A stretch of DNA of 45,325 nucleotides, taken from contig RDYW01000048.1 of NCBI GenBank assembly GCA_004293485.1, positions 1 to 45,325 of the forward strand, in the 5' to 3' direction. Origin of the DNA: Sphingobacteriales bacterium (GTDB lineage: Bacteria > Bacteroidota > Bacteroidia > Sphingobacteriales > Sphingobacteriaceae). The translations under genes were made by a program, and so were the position numbers. Under the pieces are notes generated by a model. That model saw only the letters and a list, made by a program, of their open reading frames with translations. It did no database searches and was not told the origin of the DNA. Position 1 is the stretch's first letter. Every line of letters starts with the position of its first letter. This document shows, piece after piece, positions 7,223 through 13,078 of this stretch.

Positions 7223-8437
7223 TTAGTTTAGTTTTTGCCCGCAAATTTGTTTATATTTAAGTATAAAAGCCATAAGTTGGTTGGTTCGTTGTTGCCAATC
7301 AGCATTTTTCGAAATTTCTAACCTTTTGTTTATTATTTCTTCGCTTTGTGGTTGAGTTGCAAGTGTTAAGCTGGTTTTAAAATCGGCACTATTTGCAGCG
7401 GTATAAACCACTTCATCGGCCAAACCTAAACTTGCAAACGGCGTTATTACAACCGGTAAGCCCATTGCTAAATATTCGTTTGCTTTTAAAGGATAAATAG
7501 CTTTGGTAAGCGAGTTTAATACATATGGAATAATACCTACATTAATTTTGCTTTGCAGTTGAGGTATATATTCTGGCGCAACTGGAGGCAAAAAAGTAAC
7601 ATTTTTATATTGCGATAAACGGCTAAAAACCTGTGGTTCAAAAACTTTACCAATAAATAAAAAATTAAAATGTGGCATATCTTTCACTACAGTTTCCAGC
7701 AGGTTTATATCTATTCGGTTATCAATACTCCCTGTATAACCAATTGTAATTGGCGTGTTTATTGGGTTTTGCTTGGTTGCAAAGTATTTATTAAAGGCAT
7801 TAAAGTGCACCCCATTATGCACTATTTCGGTAGGTATATTAGGGTTTGTTTTTATTTTTTGCAATTCGGTTGATGTTACAATTAGTAAATCTACTTTAGC
7901 TATGTATGCTTTTTCATCTATAGCGGCAAAATTTTTAAAATAAGGTACATTTGTAAAATCATCGTAACAATAATATACTTTAAAAGTTACATTGCGTATT
8001 TTCCAATACAATCCTAAAAATGGCTGAAAAGCATTAAAACTTATAATTTGTTTCATTTTAAATTTTTTTGCTGCTTTGTTAATATAATAGCCTGTTAAAA
8101 AGGCATTAAATTTATTGGCCAGTTTAAATAATTTATAATTATTTAGGGCAAATGATGGAAATATAGGTGGAAGCGATAAAACATAAAGACCTTTATTGTT
8201 GTTTCCACTGATTTTTTGAAGCCTATTTTTAAAGCCCAAAATCCGTTTCCAATCTATTTTTTTTTTTCCTAAAATTGCTTTCAGGCAATCGCCAAATGTA
8301 TAGGCATAATCTACATAAATTACTAAATTGTCGTTTGCGGCACATTTCATTAGCTCTACCGTTGACCGTAAATAATCGGCATGCCAAGCGGGCAGTGCAA
8401 AACATATTATATGCTGTGTAGTGTAAGGCTTGTTCAA
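7223..8437 (-). CDS. Glycosyltransferase (GT-B fold, group-1 like), last gene of the exopolysaccharide operon
   Basis: A 404-residue probable cytoplasmic glycosyltransferase. The C-terminal half carries PITIGYTGSIDNRIDINLL (donor-domain start, about residue 229), FLFIGKV, and a final segment ANEYLAMGLPVVITPF (about 346-361), where E/L-x-MGLPVV is the usual donor-binding helix. The N-terminal half is less conserved but contains the YCYDDFTNVPYF type segment seen in TuaH-like transferases. The start is TTG at 8437: it lies one base after the TAG stop of the co-polymerase gene (tag-c-ttg), and no ATG occurs until about 30 codons later, so translational coupling is likely. Donor and acceptor are unknown. 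Confidence 0.82.
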   Translation of the reverse strand: MNKPYTTQHIICFALPAWHADYLRSTVELMKCAANDNLVIYVDYAYTFGDCLKAILGKKKIDWKRILGFKNRLQKISGNNNKGLYVLSLPPIFPSFALNNYKLFKLANKFNAFLTGYYINKAAKKFKMKQIISFNAFQPFLGLYWKIRNVTFKVYYCYDDFTNVPYFKNFAAIDEKAYIAKVDLLIVTSTELQKIKTNPNIPTEIVHNGVHFNAFNKYFATKQNPINTPITIGYTGSIDNRIDINLLETVVKDMPHFNFLFIGKVFEPQVFSRLSQYKNVTFLPPVAPEYIPQLQSKINVGIIPYVLNSLTKAIYPLKANEYLAMGLPVVITPFASLGLADEVVYTAANSADFKTSLTLATQPQSEEIINKRLEISKNADWQQRTNQLMAFILKYKQICGQKLN

Positions 8438-8438
8438 G

Positions 8439-10616
8439 CTATCGTAAATTTAGGGTTAACAATTTTTTTAATTTTTTTCTAATCCAGCCTCTTTTTTTAG
8501 GTATTTCGCCAATATGGGTTTCTAAATCACTCTCTTTTGTATTTATTAGCCAAGTATATGTTGGTATGGTAGCATTAAATTTACTTATACGTAAAATAAT
8601 TTCTTTGTCTATTTTTCGCCAAGTAGTTAGGGCATTTACCGCTAATAAATTAATGTTTGATGCTTTTATGATATCTAAAGGTAAGCCGTTTTCTGATAGA
8701 TTTGGAGTGATGTACAAAATCAAATCATAGGTATCTAATTTCGTGTTAGCCAGCTCGTCGGTAGTTTTAAAATTTAATTGTTCTATGGTGGGTGTGTAAA
8801 CTAAAAAATCAGTACCTGTATCGCTATTAAATGTATTTTGGTAAGCGTGGGGTATAACCCAAATTAAGTTGGGGTATAGTGCTTTTAATCCTTTATTTAA
8901 AGTAACAATATCGGCCACGTTAAATACTTGGTTTTGGGTAGTTATAAATCCTATTTGTAATCTTTTTTTCTCTAACGCAGATGCCGAAATATAGGGCATT
9001 ATGGTATTAATTAATTGTTCGGTTAATATTTTTACCAAAGTTTTTTTATACCCGGTTTCTTGCGGGTTTGTTTGGTAAAGAGATACTCCTGCCAAAGGTA
9101 AACCTATAATTTTTATTGCATTTTCGGGTGTTTTTATCGAGGTATCTAGCAATTCTTTAGCAATAATAATGGACACAACTAGTAAAAACGACACCAAAAA
9201 AGACACAATTATCAGCATTTTTCTGGTTGATGGTTGTGCCTCTAGCGGTAAAAAAGGCTTGTCTTGTACAACAATGTTTGAGTTTAATGAAATATTACTT
9301 TGCCTTAATCTTGCTAGGTTTAAGGCGTGTAGGATGGCTAAAAATTCCTTTTCGTTAATATCTATTTGCCTATCTAATCTTTTAAGTGTTGAACCTAGTG
9401 GGGCAAATTCATTAATTTCGTCTAAATAGTTTTGTTCTTGTTTTTTTAAAACCACTAGTCCTGCTGTTGCCTTATCATAAGAAATGGCATTATTTACCCA
9501 CTCTTGTATAAGGTTGCCACGCGGTACTGTTTCTAATGTATAGTTTAAATTAATGTATTGGTTGGTTTCATTACGTAACGAATCTTCGGTTTTTTTTACT
9601 TTAGAAAGTAAGTCAACGGCTTTATTTGAGTTGCCATACACTTTTACTTTTTCTATTTGTGCGCTTAATAGCCCTATATTTTGTCTTAATTTTATAATAT
9701 CCAAGCTATTGGTAATTTGCCTTTCTCTATCATTAAGTTTTTTTTCAATTAATTGTAAGGCTTCCTTACTTGCGCTTTGGTTTACTTTTAAGTCGTAAAT
9801 ATCTTTATTTAAGCCCTCTTTTGCTTCAGCAATGTACCTAGTTTGTTCGTAATAATTTATAATTTGGTTTTCTTTACCAAACTTTTTTAATTCATCTTCC
9901 GATCTTCTTAATTTGTTTTTTACCTCTTCAAGCTTAGCTTCAAAATAGCGTACAGCACTAAATGTTTGGTTTGATTTTATTTGTTTATAATTGGCATTAA
10001 AAATTTCGCTGTGTAGCTGTAAGGTGCGCATACACACGGCAGGGTCGTGGCAGGTGTACACTACCTGTATAATATCGCTGGCATTAATGCGAGTAACTAT
10101 TAAGTTTGATTTTAGTTCGTTAATGTTGTAAAAAGTACCCTTGTTGTTTACTATTTTTTCGATAATATTATTGGCCTTAGATTTATACACCTCCGATATA
10201 TACTTATACACCTTTTCACTGGTTTTTAACGCTGCTGTTTTTTGTAACAACTCTTTGCTGGCTAGTAGTTGTAAGTTTTCAAACCCTTCTTGTCCTAAAA
10301 TATGCGAATCGGGTTTTTTTAGTGCCAAATGTTCGGCCAGCAAGCGTAACGAAACCGCTTCAATTGTTTCTCTTGATTTTGCCGATGCTAATAAGTTATC
10401 AAACGCATTGTTTACAGCAAAATAATCTATACGTTGGTCTTCGGTACTAGCAATAGAGTATCCGCTAGCAACCCCTGTATATAAAGTTGTTGTACTTAAA
10501 TATTCTTTTTTTTCGTTTTGGGTAAGTAAATAAACGGTAATAGCGGTTGCAATAGGTACAACAACTATCCAAATTATATTTCTCCACAATAATTTAAAAT
10601 AATGTATTAAATTCAT
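8439..10616 (-). CDS. Wzz/GumC-type polysaccharide co-polymerase with degenerate kinase-like C-terminus
   Basis: This 725-residue inner-membrane protein should control chain length and export of an exopolysaccharide. It has an N-terminal membrane helix (about residues 15-33, IIWIVVVPIATAITVYLL), a long periplasmic coiled-coil region rich in E/K/L heptads (about 210-430), and a second helix (about 467-486, MLIIVSFLVSFLLVVSIIIA) followed by a ~230-residue cytoplasmic domain. In bacterial tyrosine autokinases this last domain carries Walker A (GEGKS/T) and a tyrosine tail. Here the position reads GFITTQNQVFNVADIVTLNK, with no P-loop and no tyrosine cluster. The gene overlaps the upstream OEP gene by 4 bp (ATGA). 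Confidence 0.85.
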   Translation of the reverse strand: MNLIHYFKLLWRNIIWIVVVPIATAITVYLLTQNEKKEYLSTTTLYTGVASGYSIASTEDQRIDYFAVNNAFDNLLASAKSRETIEAVSLRLLAEHLALKKPDSHILGQEGFENLQLLASKELLQKTAALKTSEKVYKYISEVYKSKANNIIEKIVNNKGTFYNINELKSNLIVTRINASDIIQVVYTCHDPAVCMRTLQLHSEIFNANYKQIKSNQTFSAVRYFEAKLEEVKNKLRRSEDELKKFGKENQIINYYEQTRYIAEAKEGLNKDIYDLKVNQSASKEALQLIEKKLNDRERQITNSLDIIKLRQNIGLLSAQIEKVKVYGNSNKAVDLLSKVKKTEDSLRNETNQYINLNYTLETVPRGNLIQEWVNNAISYDKATAGLVVLKKQEQNYLDEINEFAPLGSTLKRLDRQIDINEKEFLAILHALNLARLRQSNISLNSNIVVQDKPFLPLEAQPSTRKMLIIVSFLVSFLLVVSIIIAKELLDTSIKTPENAIKIIGLPLAGVSLYQTNPQETGYKKTLVKILTEQLINTIMPYISASALEKKRLQIGFITTQNQVFNVADIVTLNKGLKALYPNLIWVIPHAYQNTFNSDTGTDFLVYTPTIEQLNFKTTDELANTKLDTYDLILYITPNLSENGLPLDIIKASNINLLAVNALTTWRKIDKEIILRISKFNATIPTYTWLINTKESDLETHIGEIPKKRGWIRKKLKKLLTLNLR

Positions 10617-11365
10617 TTTTTTAATATTAGTTGTTGCATGGGTACACCTACAAGGTTTTCTAACAAAAAATAAAGGGTAGAAAACTGTCTTTTTGCTTCT
10701 TCAAAATCGGCCTTCGAGTTTACCTCTATTGTTTTTAGTCGAGATAGTTCGGTAACATCAATTAAACCATCTTTAAACTGTTTTTGTGCTATTAAATATT
10801 GGTTAATTGTTGTTTGTTTAGAATCGCTACGTATATTTACCAAGTTATTATAATACAGCATACTATAATACGTTTGTATAACCTCTTTTTTAAGCTCTTG
10901 AATGGCTTCCTCTTTTTTGCTTATTGTTGAGTTAAGTTGTGATTTGTATAGATTAACCCTTGATTTTCGACCCACAAATTCATATAAAGGTAAATTTAGC
11001 TGAATTCCCATTCGGTAGCCATTTGTAATGTTGGTTGCATCTAATGTGCCAACGTTTTGATTACCTGCCGAAATTAAGTTTTGATTACCAGCTGTGTAGC
11101 CTACAAAGCCAACAATATTATTTGTCCAAACCCGTTTAGAAAAATCTACTTGGTATTTTGCTGCATCTATTAAATCGCTTTGAAACCTTACGATAGGTGA
11201 ATTTTTAATGGCAATTTCTATAATGCTATCTAATGGTAAAATCTGACTTTGTAGGTCAGTTTTTTCGTCTAACACAAACATTAAATTAGTATTAGGTTTT
11301 GATTGTGCATTTAATAATTGGGTTACAAACAACAATATAATTAATATATAAAATTTTAATTGCAT
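10613..11365 (-). CDS. Half-length TolC-like outer membrane efflux protein
   Basis: A 250-residue exported protein with a signal peptide (MQLKFYILIILLFVTQLLNAQ, cleavage likely after LNA). It contains a single outer-membrane-efflux-protein repeat: an LPLDSIIEIAIKNSPIVR helix start, a glycine-rich beta segment, then a long alpha-helical hairpin (about residues 145-235) ending FLLENLVGVP. Ordinary TolC proteins have two such repeats in about 450 residues, so this is a half unit that would have to assemble as a higher oligomer. No frameshift remnant follows, and the stop overlaps the next gene by 4 bp, so the short form looks genuine. In context it is the outer-membrane component for exopolysaccharide export. 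Confidence 0.8.
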   Translation of the reverse strand: MQLKFYILIILLFVTQLLNAQSKPNTNLMFVLDEKTDLQSQILPLDSIIEIAIKNSPIVRFQSDLIDAAKYQVDFSKRVWTNNIVGFVGYTAGNQNLISAGNQNVGTLDATNITNGYRMGIQLNLPLYEFVGRKSRVNLYKSQLNSTISKKEEAIQELKKEVIQTYYSMLYYNNLVNIRSDSKQTTINQYLIAQKQFKDGLIDVTELSRLKTIEVNSKADFEEAKRQFSTLYFLLENLVGVPMQQLILKK

Positions 11366-11371
11366 TTTATT

Positions 11372-12571
11372 TTAAACATTTTCTTTTTGAAACAAGGCTG
11401 GTATAGTTTTTAATATTAGTTTTATATCATTAGTAAAGCTATGGTTTTTAGCGTATTGGTTATCTAACAACAACCTTTCTTCCTCCGACATTTCACCTTT
11501 CCCTCTTTTTTCTACCTGCCATAGGCCTGTTATACCTGCTGGAGCTAAAAATCGTAATGCGTATTTATCAGATGTAAGTTTTTCGGCTTCGTAAAGTGGC
11601 AATGGCCTGTTTCCTACAATGCTCATATCGCCAATTAAAACATTCCAAAGTTGCGGCAGTTCATCAATACTTGTATTTCTTATAAAATTACCCACCTTTG
11701 TTACCCTAGGGTCGTTTTTAATTTTTACAAATGCCGATTTTGCCGACGAGTGCTTAAAATCTAAATAGTTTTTTTCGCACCATTCTATTTTATCGGCATA
11801 TATTGGATATTGGCATGGGGTGCCGGCGTTGGTGCATGTTGTGCATAAGCCAATTGGTGTTGTGGTTTTTTTATCAACATCTGAATTTGCATTGTATTGA
11901 TTTAGGTGTTTTAAATCTTTAAGTTTTTGATCTGCGTTTACATACATTGATCTAAATTTAAAAAACTTAAATACCCTATAACCAGTACCAGCCCTAAGCG
12001 AAAAATAAAATGCTGGCCCACTAGATTCTAATTTAAGTGCTATAATTACTAATAAAAATAATGGCGATAGTGCAAATAAACCAATTGAACTAAAAAATAC
12101 ATCAAAAATTCGTTTAGCTAACGGTATTTTATATTTTGAATATTTTGCCGTTACACGGCTATTGTTATTAATTTTTTGCCAGTTTTGCACCAAAAAATTT
12201 ACTCTTAAAAATAAATCTTCGCTTTTATCTGGAAGTTTAGTATAAACATCGGCTATACCCGCTTTTAAGCATATTAACCTAAGGTTATCGTTAATGTAAT
12301 TAGATATTAAAATAAATGGCACATTTAAAAACTTATTTTGTAATAATGTTTGGTAAAGCGCAATGCCCATCGGTGACATAATTTCGCCAACACAAATAAC
12401 GGCATCAATGGGTGTAGTACCTTTTACCCAGTAAGTATGCATTTCAAATCCGTTTTTAAACGAAATAATTTCAAAATTATCGGTTTTAAAACTTTTAAAA
12501 AAATTAAAAATTTGGCTGTTTGCATTAATTAATGCAATTGTTTTGTTTGTTTTGGTATTGTTTGCATCCAT
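11372..12571 (-). CDS. Undecaprenyl-phosphate sugar-1-phosphate transferase with N-terminal pseudo-receiver domain
   Basis: This 399-residue protein probably starts exopolysaccharide repeat-unit assembly by moving a sugar-1-phosphate onto undecaprenyl phosphate. Residues 10-130 look like a response-regulator receiver, but the phospho-acceptor aspartate site reads AVICVGE and the N-terminal acidic pair is missing; only the K-L-P near residue 112 survives. Residues about 153-180 form the membrane helix ([20 protein letters not shown]). The PglC/WbaP-like catalytic core follows, with [46 protein letters not shown] and [11 protein letters not shown] 45-residue insert between KFRSM and the DEL motif holds four cysteines (243, 246, 253, 265; C-x2-C-x6-C-x11-C), a possible metal site. 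Confidence 0.88.
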
Positions 12572-12585
12572 AATTTACAAACAAA

Positions 12586-12984
12586 TTAAATTATTTTACC
12601 TAATCGTTTTAAAACTATCTTCAATCTTGCGTCAAGCTCTTGAGGGTTAAAGGGTTTAACAATAAAATCATCGGCACCAGCATTTAAACATTGTATTCTT
12701 TTATCAGAGTTTTCTTCGCCCGAAAGTATTAGTATTGGTATAAAACTAAAAAAGCCACTTGTTTTTATTTGTTTTATTAGCTCCAAACCTCCAATTTCTG
12801 GAGTGTTTAAGTCGCTTAATATTACATCAGGTACGTTGCCAAGTTGTATGCTGGTAAGTGCCTCTAACCCATTACTAAAAATTGATATTGAGTATTGAAA
12901 CGATAAGTGAATACTTAGTAGATTTTGCATATATACATCATCTTCTACGATAAATAGGTGTATATCTTTGTATATGTTTTCCAT
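12586..12984 (-). CDS. Stand-alone response regulator receiver protein
   Basis: A 132-residue single-domain CheY-like protein. All receiver residues are present: the acidic pair in LFIVEDDVY (about 15-16), the phospho-acceptor Asp in PDVILSDLNTPEIGG (about 58), the Ser in ILILSGEE and the Lys in IVKPFNPQE (about 109). There is no DNA-binding or enzymatic output domain, so it must act by protein contact or phosphotransfer. It is the first gene of the exopolysaccharide operon, 14 bp upstream of the sugar transferase that carries a degenerate receiver. No histidine kinase is in the window. A weak -7-like TACTTTG lies at 13053-13047 on the minus strand. Confidence 0.9.
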   Translation of the reverse strand: MENIYKDIHLFIVEDDVYMQNLLSIHLSFQYSISIFSNGLEALTSIQLGNVPDVILSDLNTPEIGGLELIKQIKTSGFFSFIPILILSGEENSDKRIQCLNAGADDFIVKPFNPQELDARLKIVLKRLGKII

Positions 12985-13078
12985 ATTTTGTGAGCAATAA
13001 TTTAGTGTTATTTAATTGTCGAAAATTAAACAAATGATTGAATAAACAAAGTATTAAAATTAACCTTTTAAAAAATTA

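Follow-up and report, generated by a model that had tools for sequence, protein, structure and literature searches.

A live receiver paired with a phosphoglycosyl transferase bearing a predicted pseudo-receiver: a conserved gene pair and candidate post-translational switch in Bacteroidota polysaccharide synthesis

The window analyzed here is a 45,325-nucleotide stretch of DNA from a Sphingobacteriales bacterium (contig RDYW01000048.1, assembly GCA_004293485.1). At 7223–12984 it carries five tightly packed open reading frames (ORFs), all on the minus strand and spaced by 14, 6, −4 and 1 nt. The first gene (12586–12984) encodes a stand-alone receiver of 132 residues. The second (11372–12571) encodes a 399-residue small monotopic phosphoglycosyl transferase (PGT), in which residues 1–138 (12158–12571) form a predicted pseudo-receiver and residues 153–394 (11390–12115) the catalytic domain. 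The remaining genes encode an outer-membrane protein, a Wzz-like co-polymerase and a glycosyltransferase.

Relatives of the PGT were found in 86 of 151 genomes of the family, with the match often confined to the catalytic part. We selected 40 loci from the 90 matches listed (family set), and in 39 of these the PGT gene is immediately preceded by a receiver ORF, with gaps of −44 to +26 nt in 38 and of 326 nt in one. A separate scan of named genomes, based on PGT motifs only, gave at least 589 relatives, of which the 80 best form the named set. Here a receiver lies within 200 nt of the PGT in 74/80 loci and precedes it in 70 of the 71 having the N-terminal domain, a count that omits L162 (a large PGT from WOR-3) and eight loci whose PGTs have under 120 residues N-terminal to the catalytic domain (L106, L110, L124, L131, L136, L147, L151 and L155). 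All labels in the named set are Bacteroidota except L157 (Beijerinckiaceae) and L162, and the genera include Bacteroides, Prevotella, Alistipes, Flavobacterium, Chitinophaga, Dyadobacter, Pedobacter and Mucilaginibacter. The shares in both sets describe near relatives of the window protein rather than phylum-wide prevalence. As controls, we inspected 30 same-family PGTs of different types (28 large ones and two of 205 and 237 residues) with flanks of up to 1.5 kb, and none had a receiver ORF beside it. Fisher's exact test of 109/111 against 0/29, omitting control L189, which has 2 nt of upstream sequence, gave 5e-28, a value uncorrected for shared ancestry and for one or two loci present in both sets (L054 and L087 are one locus; L052 and L086 look identical). 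This near-obligate pairing, beyond chance and reaching far outside the window genome, is our strongest result, and the co-occurrence test suggested in the initial annotation of this DNA did not refute the model given there. Individual loci show further variation. At L124 (5594–6732) and L136 (5583–6735), the gene directly after the receiver encodes a bare PGT, 250 and 245 residues long, respectively; at L044 (7861–9037) and L106 (5869–7065), the PGT gene reads as two ORFs, reflecting decay or assembly error; and the pair at L157 (4973–6612), on a contig labeled outside Bacteroidota, reflects misbinning or transfer.

The 132-residue protein matches Pfam Response_reg (E = 1.3e-22), with no other domain, and possesses E14/D15, the acceptor D58, S88 and K110. 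By its sequence it is a single-domain response regulator with a complete set of phosphorylation residues, as first annotated. An alignment of 110 receivers from paired loci shows these columns to be conserved: the acidic-pair columns hold D/E in 108 and D in 102, the acceptor column Asp in 105, and the remaining two S/T in all 110 and K in 109. The paired receivers of L075, L076, L129, L144 and L145 carry Glu or Ser at the acceptor, and the genomes of L075 and L076 (G150 and G013) hold a second pair with a live receiver (L047 and L049, respectively).

Turning to the N-terminus of the PGT, Response_reg matches residues 27–115 at E = 0.002 and 18.7 bits, under the 30.2 cut-off; at E ≤ 0.1 the family is found in the PGTs of 25/71 and 15/39 relatives, at best with 6.6e-11. 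In the AlphaFold model of the window PGT (mean pLDDT 72), five beta-alpha units follow in order across residues 10–138, and this region superposes on solved receivers with Z up to 15.3 and rmsd 1.9 over 117 residues, with Foldseek in agreement. This topology recurs in a model of the distant Bacteroides fragilis relative L118, in which residues 1–120 have block-mean pLDDT values of 88–96 and receivers are matched with Z up to 16.0. Alignment of 37 N-termini with 39 neighboring receivers using hhalign gave 98.2% (E = 3e-14, 119 columns). The N-terminus could instead be the Rossmann-like domain of unknown function (DUF) of large PGTs, as both are alpha/beta domains ahead of the same catalytic domain. 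Yet hhalign gave 1.2% for the N-termini against this DUF as aligned from 24 large PGTs (and 1.0% for the DUF against receivers), neither model has a transmembrane bundle, and the Response_reg matches in relatives also argue against it; this candidate was rejected, and we regard it as refuted on present evidence, with a negligible chance of being correct.

The receiver-like domain of the PGT appears unable to accept phosphate. In the window protein, a profile alignment places V61 at the acceptor position and L113 at the lysine position. Across 110 PGT N-termini, a count without L044, whose PGT is split, and L062, whose PGT is truncated, the acceptor column is Glu in 64 and Asp in 10, the lysine column is Lys in 5, and the acidic pair is lost; window-type PGTs have a Glu two residues past the acceptor column. 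Because the receiver fold is present while the acidic pair, acceptor Asp and Lys are lost, the first ~138 residues are predicted to be a non-phosphorylatable pseudo-receiver. The initial annotation had described the N-terminal 130 residues as a receiver without the phospho-acceptor Asp; the modeled fold is that of a receiver, and no conserved Asp emerged at the acceptor column after alignment. Between the window genome and its sister G133, dN/dS values are 0.12 for the receiver, 0.14 for the pseudo-receiver and 0.13 for the catalytic part, and the three are thus under similar purifying selection. The atypical orphan response regulator HP1043 is a DNA-binding regulator and is not fused to an enzyme. 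Its structures (2pln, 2hqo) are the best match to the pseudo-receiver (Z 15.3, others within 1), and their title describes a receiver that works without phosphorylation.

The catalytic part (residues 153–394) matches Bac_transf with E = 1.8e-57. The D-x12-P motif (D157, P170) and the D-E dyad (D303, E304), described as PGT motifs in passages of PMC12802240, are conserved. The top Foldseek match of the window model is PglC, and the B. fragilis relative superposes on PglC with Z 18.7 and rmsd 2.9 over 179 residues; PglC of Campylobacter concisus (8e37, 8g1n) shares the catalytic domain but consists of that domain alone. No transmembrane bundle was seen in the window or the B. fragilis model, and the NCBIfam EPS_EpsZ score of 157.9 bits is below the cut-off of 800. 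Judged by sequence and models, the PGT is of the small monotopic type, not a large PGT of the EpsZ family, and the enzyme looks intact. Residues 228–277 (11741–11890) form an insert of low pLDDT with four Cys residues (243, 246, 253 and 265), and the pattern C-x2-C-x6-C-x11-C recurs in 16/42 family-set rows and 26/80 named loci; this is a possible metal or redox site.

Histidine kinases (HKs) adjoin the pair in relatives. At the 15 loci with long-form PGTs (L043–L057), a kinase related by similarity lies beside the pair in 11: in nine it adjoins the receiver in divergent orientation (L045, L048–L051 and L053–L056), and in two it stands at the distal operon end (L043 and L044). All eight kinases scanned, from seven long-form loci, contain HisKA, HATPase, REC and HPt domains. 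The single receiver–PGT pair of L056 (3479–12310) is flanked by two different hybrid HPt kinases. A further domain scan covered ten neighbor proteins of pairs. Neighbors at L083 and L097 combine HK, REC and HPt; that at L115 has REC and HPt, with kinase domains undetected; HK and REC, but no HPt, were found at L091 and L105; one neighbor each at L160 and L136 has HK without REC; that at L064 has PAS and HATPase only; and another L136 protein is FIST. At L095 an HPt ORF is followed directly by the receiver and then the PGT. Elsewhere in the window genome (G000), contig C10 encodes a PAS-HK-REC-REC-HPt protein, 41% identical over 1415 residues to an L056-flanking kinase, and contig C17 a lone HPt protein. 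The kinase–REC–HPt genes beside the pair in relatives are thus a plausible phosphate source for the receiver. FIST homologs occur in 4/120 loci near kinases, at L043 (10867–12012), L068 (13857–14999), L108 (1268–2395) and L136 (4272–5351), with Pfam confirmation only in L136, and several kinases near the pair have HNOBA matches. We remark that FIST genes adjoining kinases could provide nitric oxide sensing.

A stand-alone receiver has to act through protein contact, and transfer from a kinase–REC–HPt protein to a receiver is standard relay logic. We propose that a relay from a histidine kinase (often, in relatives, a PAS-rich hybrid with HPt at its end) transfers phosphate to the stand-alone receiver, which would then bind the non-phosphorylatable pseudo-receiver of the PGT to form a heterodimer, perhaps through the alpha4-beta5-alpha5 face. 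The long alpha5 helix (residues 117–138 in the window model and 105–132 in the B. fragilis model) points towards the re-entrant membrane helix, and a signal could pass along it to set PGT activity. The PGT is predicted to load the lipid carrier with its first sugar-phosphate, and the switch would therefore be post-translational and act at the committed step. We consider it fairly probable that the first two genes form such a unit. The proposal is supported by the receiver fold, the dead and live acceptors, purifying selection, near-obligate pairing, the HPt kinases of relatives, the invariance of D108 and R123 in 37 N-termini and the EpsW/EpsZ precedent; by analogy with EpsW/EpsZ, activation of the PGT would be favored over inhibition. 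The encoding of a PGT with a dead receiver right behind a live receiver suggests that, in many Bacteroidota, the live receiver switches the enzyme by direct contact and not through gene expression. The post-translational control put forward in the initial annotation is thus strengthened in its structural, co-occurrence and phosphate-source elements, while the binding and the sign of its effect keep the standing of proposals.

Several observations weigh against this proposal. Mutual information with APC, computed over 108 receiver/pseudo-receiver pairs (Neff 75), gave a top covariation z of 6.1, whereas 30 shuffled pairings reached up to 6.2; as the true pairing does no better than shuffled ones, no interface can be named. 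The tree-distance correlation between receiver and pseudo-receiver given the catalytic domain is 0.47 (permuted maximum 0.13), and that between receiver and catalytic domain given the pseudo-receiver is 0.45: receiver and PGT are inherited in a coupled manner that is not specific to the pseudo-receiver domain. At L147 and L151 the PGT is bare and the receiver lies 2.5 and 2.3 kb upstream of it, respectively; L068 has the N-terminal domain and no receiver adjoining; 5/110 paired receivers lack the acceptor Asp; and no kinase was found beside the window operon. The receivers of L124 and L136, which directly precede a PGT without a pseudo-receiver, also count against the proposal and fit a different arrangement, in which the pseudo-receiver would be a self-dimerization module of the PGT and the receiver would act on the catalytic part or linker. 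D108 and R123 are invariant across the 37 N-termini and align to receiver columns D106 and R120, both of which are kept in 81/110 N-termini and 61/110 receivers; we take these to be salt-bridge positions of the alpha4-beta5-alpha5 dimers of OmpR/PhoB regulators, and they could serve homodimers. A self-dimerization module would need no receiver, yet 70/71 named-set PGTs with the domain have one adjoining, and we consider this arrangement unlikely.

A partner other than the PGT must also be weighed against the proposed receiver–pseudo-receiver contact. Stand-alone receivers can be phosphate sinks or act on other proteins, and with hybrid HPt kinases near the pair in relatives, the receiver might serve a kinase as a sink, or the Wzz-like protein, while merely being co-transcribed with the PGT. 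Queries with the window OEP and Wzz-like proteins were, however, unmatched in many loci that have the pair (e.g., L045–L057), so the PGT is the neighbor that stays; the control PGTs without a receiver also speak against this alternative, which we rate as somewhat less likely again than self-dimerization.

The downstream genes correspond to the outer-membrane, co-polymerase and transferase functions first assigned to them. The 250-residue outer-membrane protein of TolC type (10613–11365) has a single OEP repeat (Pfam OEP, 9.2e-19), and the 404-residue glycosyltransferase of group 1 type (7223–8437) matches Glyco_trans_1_4 (2.6e-7). Matches of the 725-residue Wzz-like protein (8439–10616) to Wzz (0.0012) and to the XrtA chain-length family (2.4e-12) are both under cut-off. 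No P-loop was seen in this protein, which is without the GEGK-like motif that several short-type relatives show. Pfam found no nucleotide-binding domain in it, unlike in L070, a Walker-A pattern scan matched 0/17, and a PDB sequence search with it as query gave no match below E 0.3; it possibly contains a pseudokinase module. Scans for promoter- and terminator-like signals gave no excess over shuffles. No homolog of the flippase- and polymerase-like proteins of G123 was matched in the window genome, an empty result that proves nothing; Polysacc_synt_3 has one match there, on contig C25. The block at 7246–13074, spanning the operon and ~90 bp upstream, is 93.9% identical to G133 (L043, 1969–7797), whereas the flanking genes differ between the two and a search gave no flank match, which indicates relocation of either the operon or the DNA around it. 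In the window genome, nothing closely matched the kinase that adjoins the operon in G133.

A receiver acting on an initiating PGT of the large type is already known: according to passages of PMC12802240 (mBio, November 2025), phosphorylated EpsW stimulates EpsZ in Myxococcus xanthus. The two cases differ in enzyme class: EpsZ belongs to the large PGTs and has a transmembrane bundle and DUF, whereas the window PGT is small with a pseudo-receiver. They also differ in input, with the Dif chemosensory system driving EpsW and HPt hybrid kinases adjoining the present pair in relatives. The EpsW/EpsZ system belongs to myxobacteria and the present pair to Bacteroidota. Receiver domains on small monoPGTs are likewise known, from a 2021 survey (O'Toole 2021) as cited in PMC12802240; as described there, they share with the window PGT the presence of both domains in one chain. 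Among open-licence PMC papers (subscription papers were not covered), PMC12802240 was the only one found to treat the action of a receiver on a PGT, and no description was found in this literature of a live receiver paired with a dead-receiver PGT, of its linkage in Bacteroidota or of adjoining HPt kinases. Within that coverage, what appears new is the pair itself, its near-obligate linkage in Bacteroidota and the HPt kinases beside it.

Undecaprenyl phosphate is common to peptidoglycan and surface polysaccharides, and control of the first transferase therefore decides its destination. If the proposal is true, many Bacteroidota, including gut Bacteroides and Prevotella, would apply two-component signaling directly to the PGT, and the one worked example of Myxococcus EpsW/EpsZ would be extended to another PGT class, with a built-in docking domain. 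The receiver and the ~138-residue soluble domain would make a simple system for the study of recognition between live and dead receivers. We see about an even chance that the switch is Bacteroidota-wide, operating in environmental and gut genera alike: HPt relays would end on a stand-alone receiver, in place of a transcription factor, that heterodimerizes with the PGT pseudo-receiver and thereby controls post-translationally how undecaprenyl phosphate flows into exopolysaccharide or capsule production, and the four-Cys insert may add a metal or redox input.

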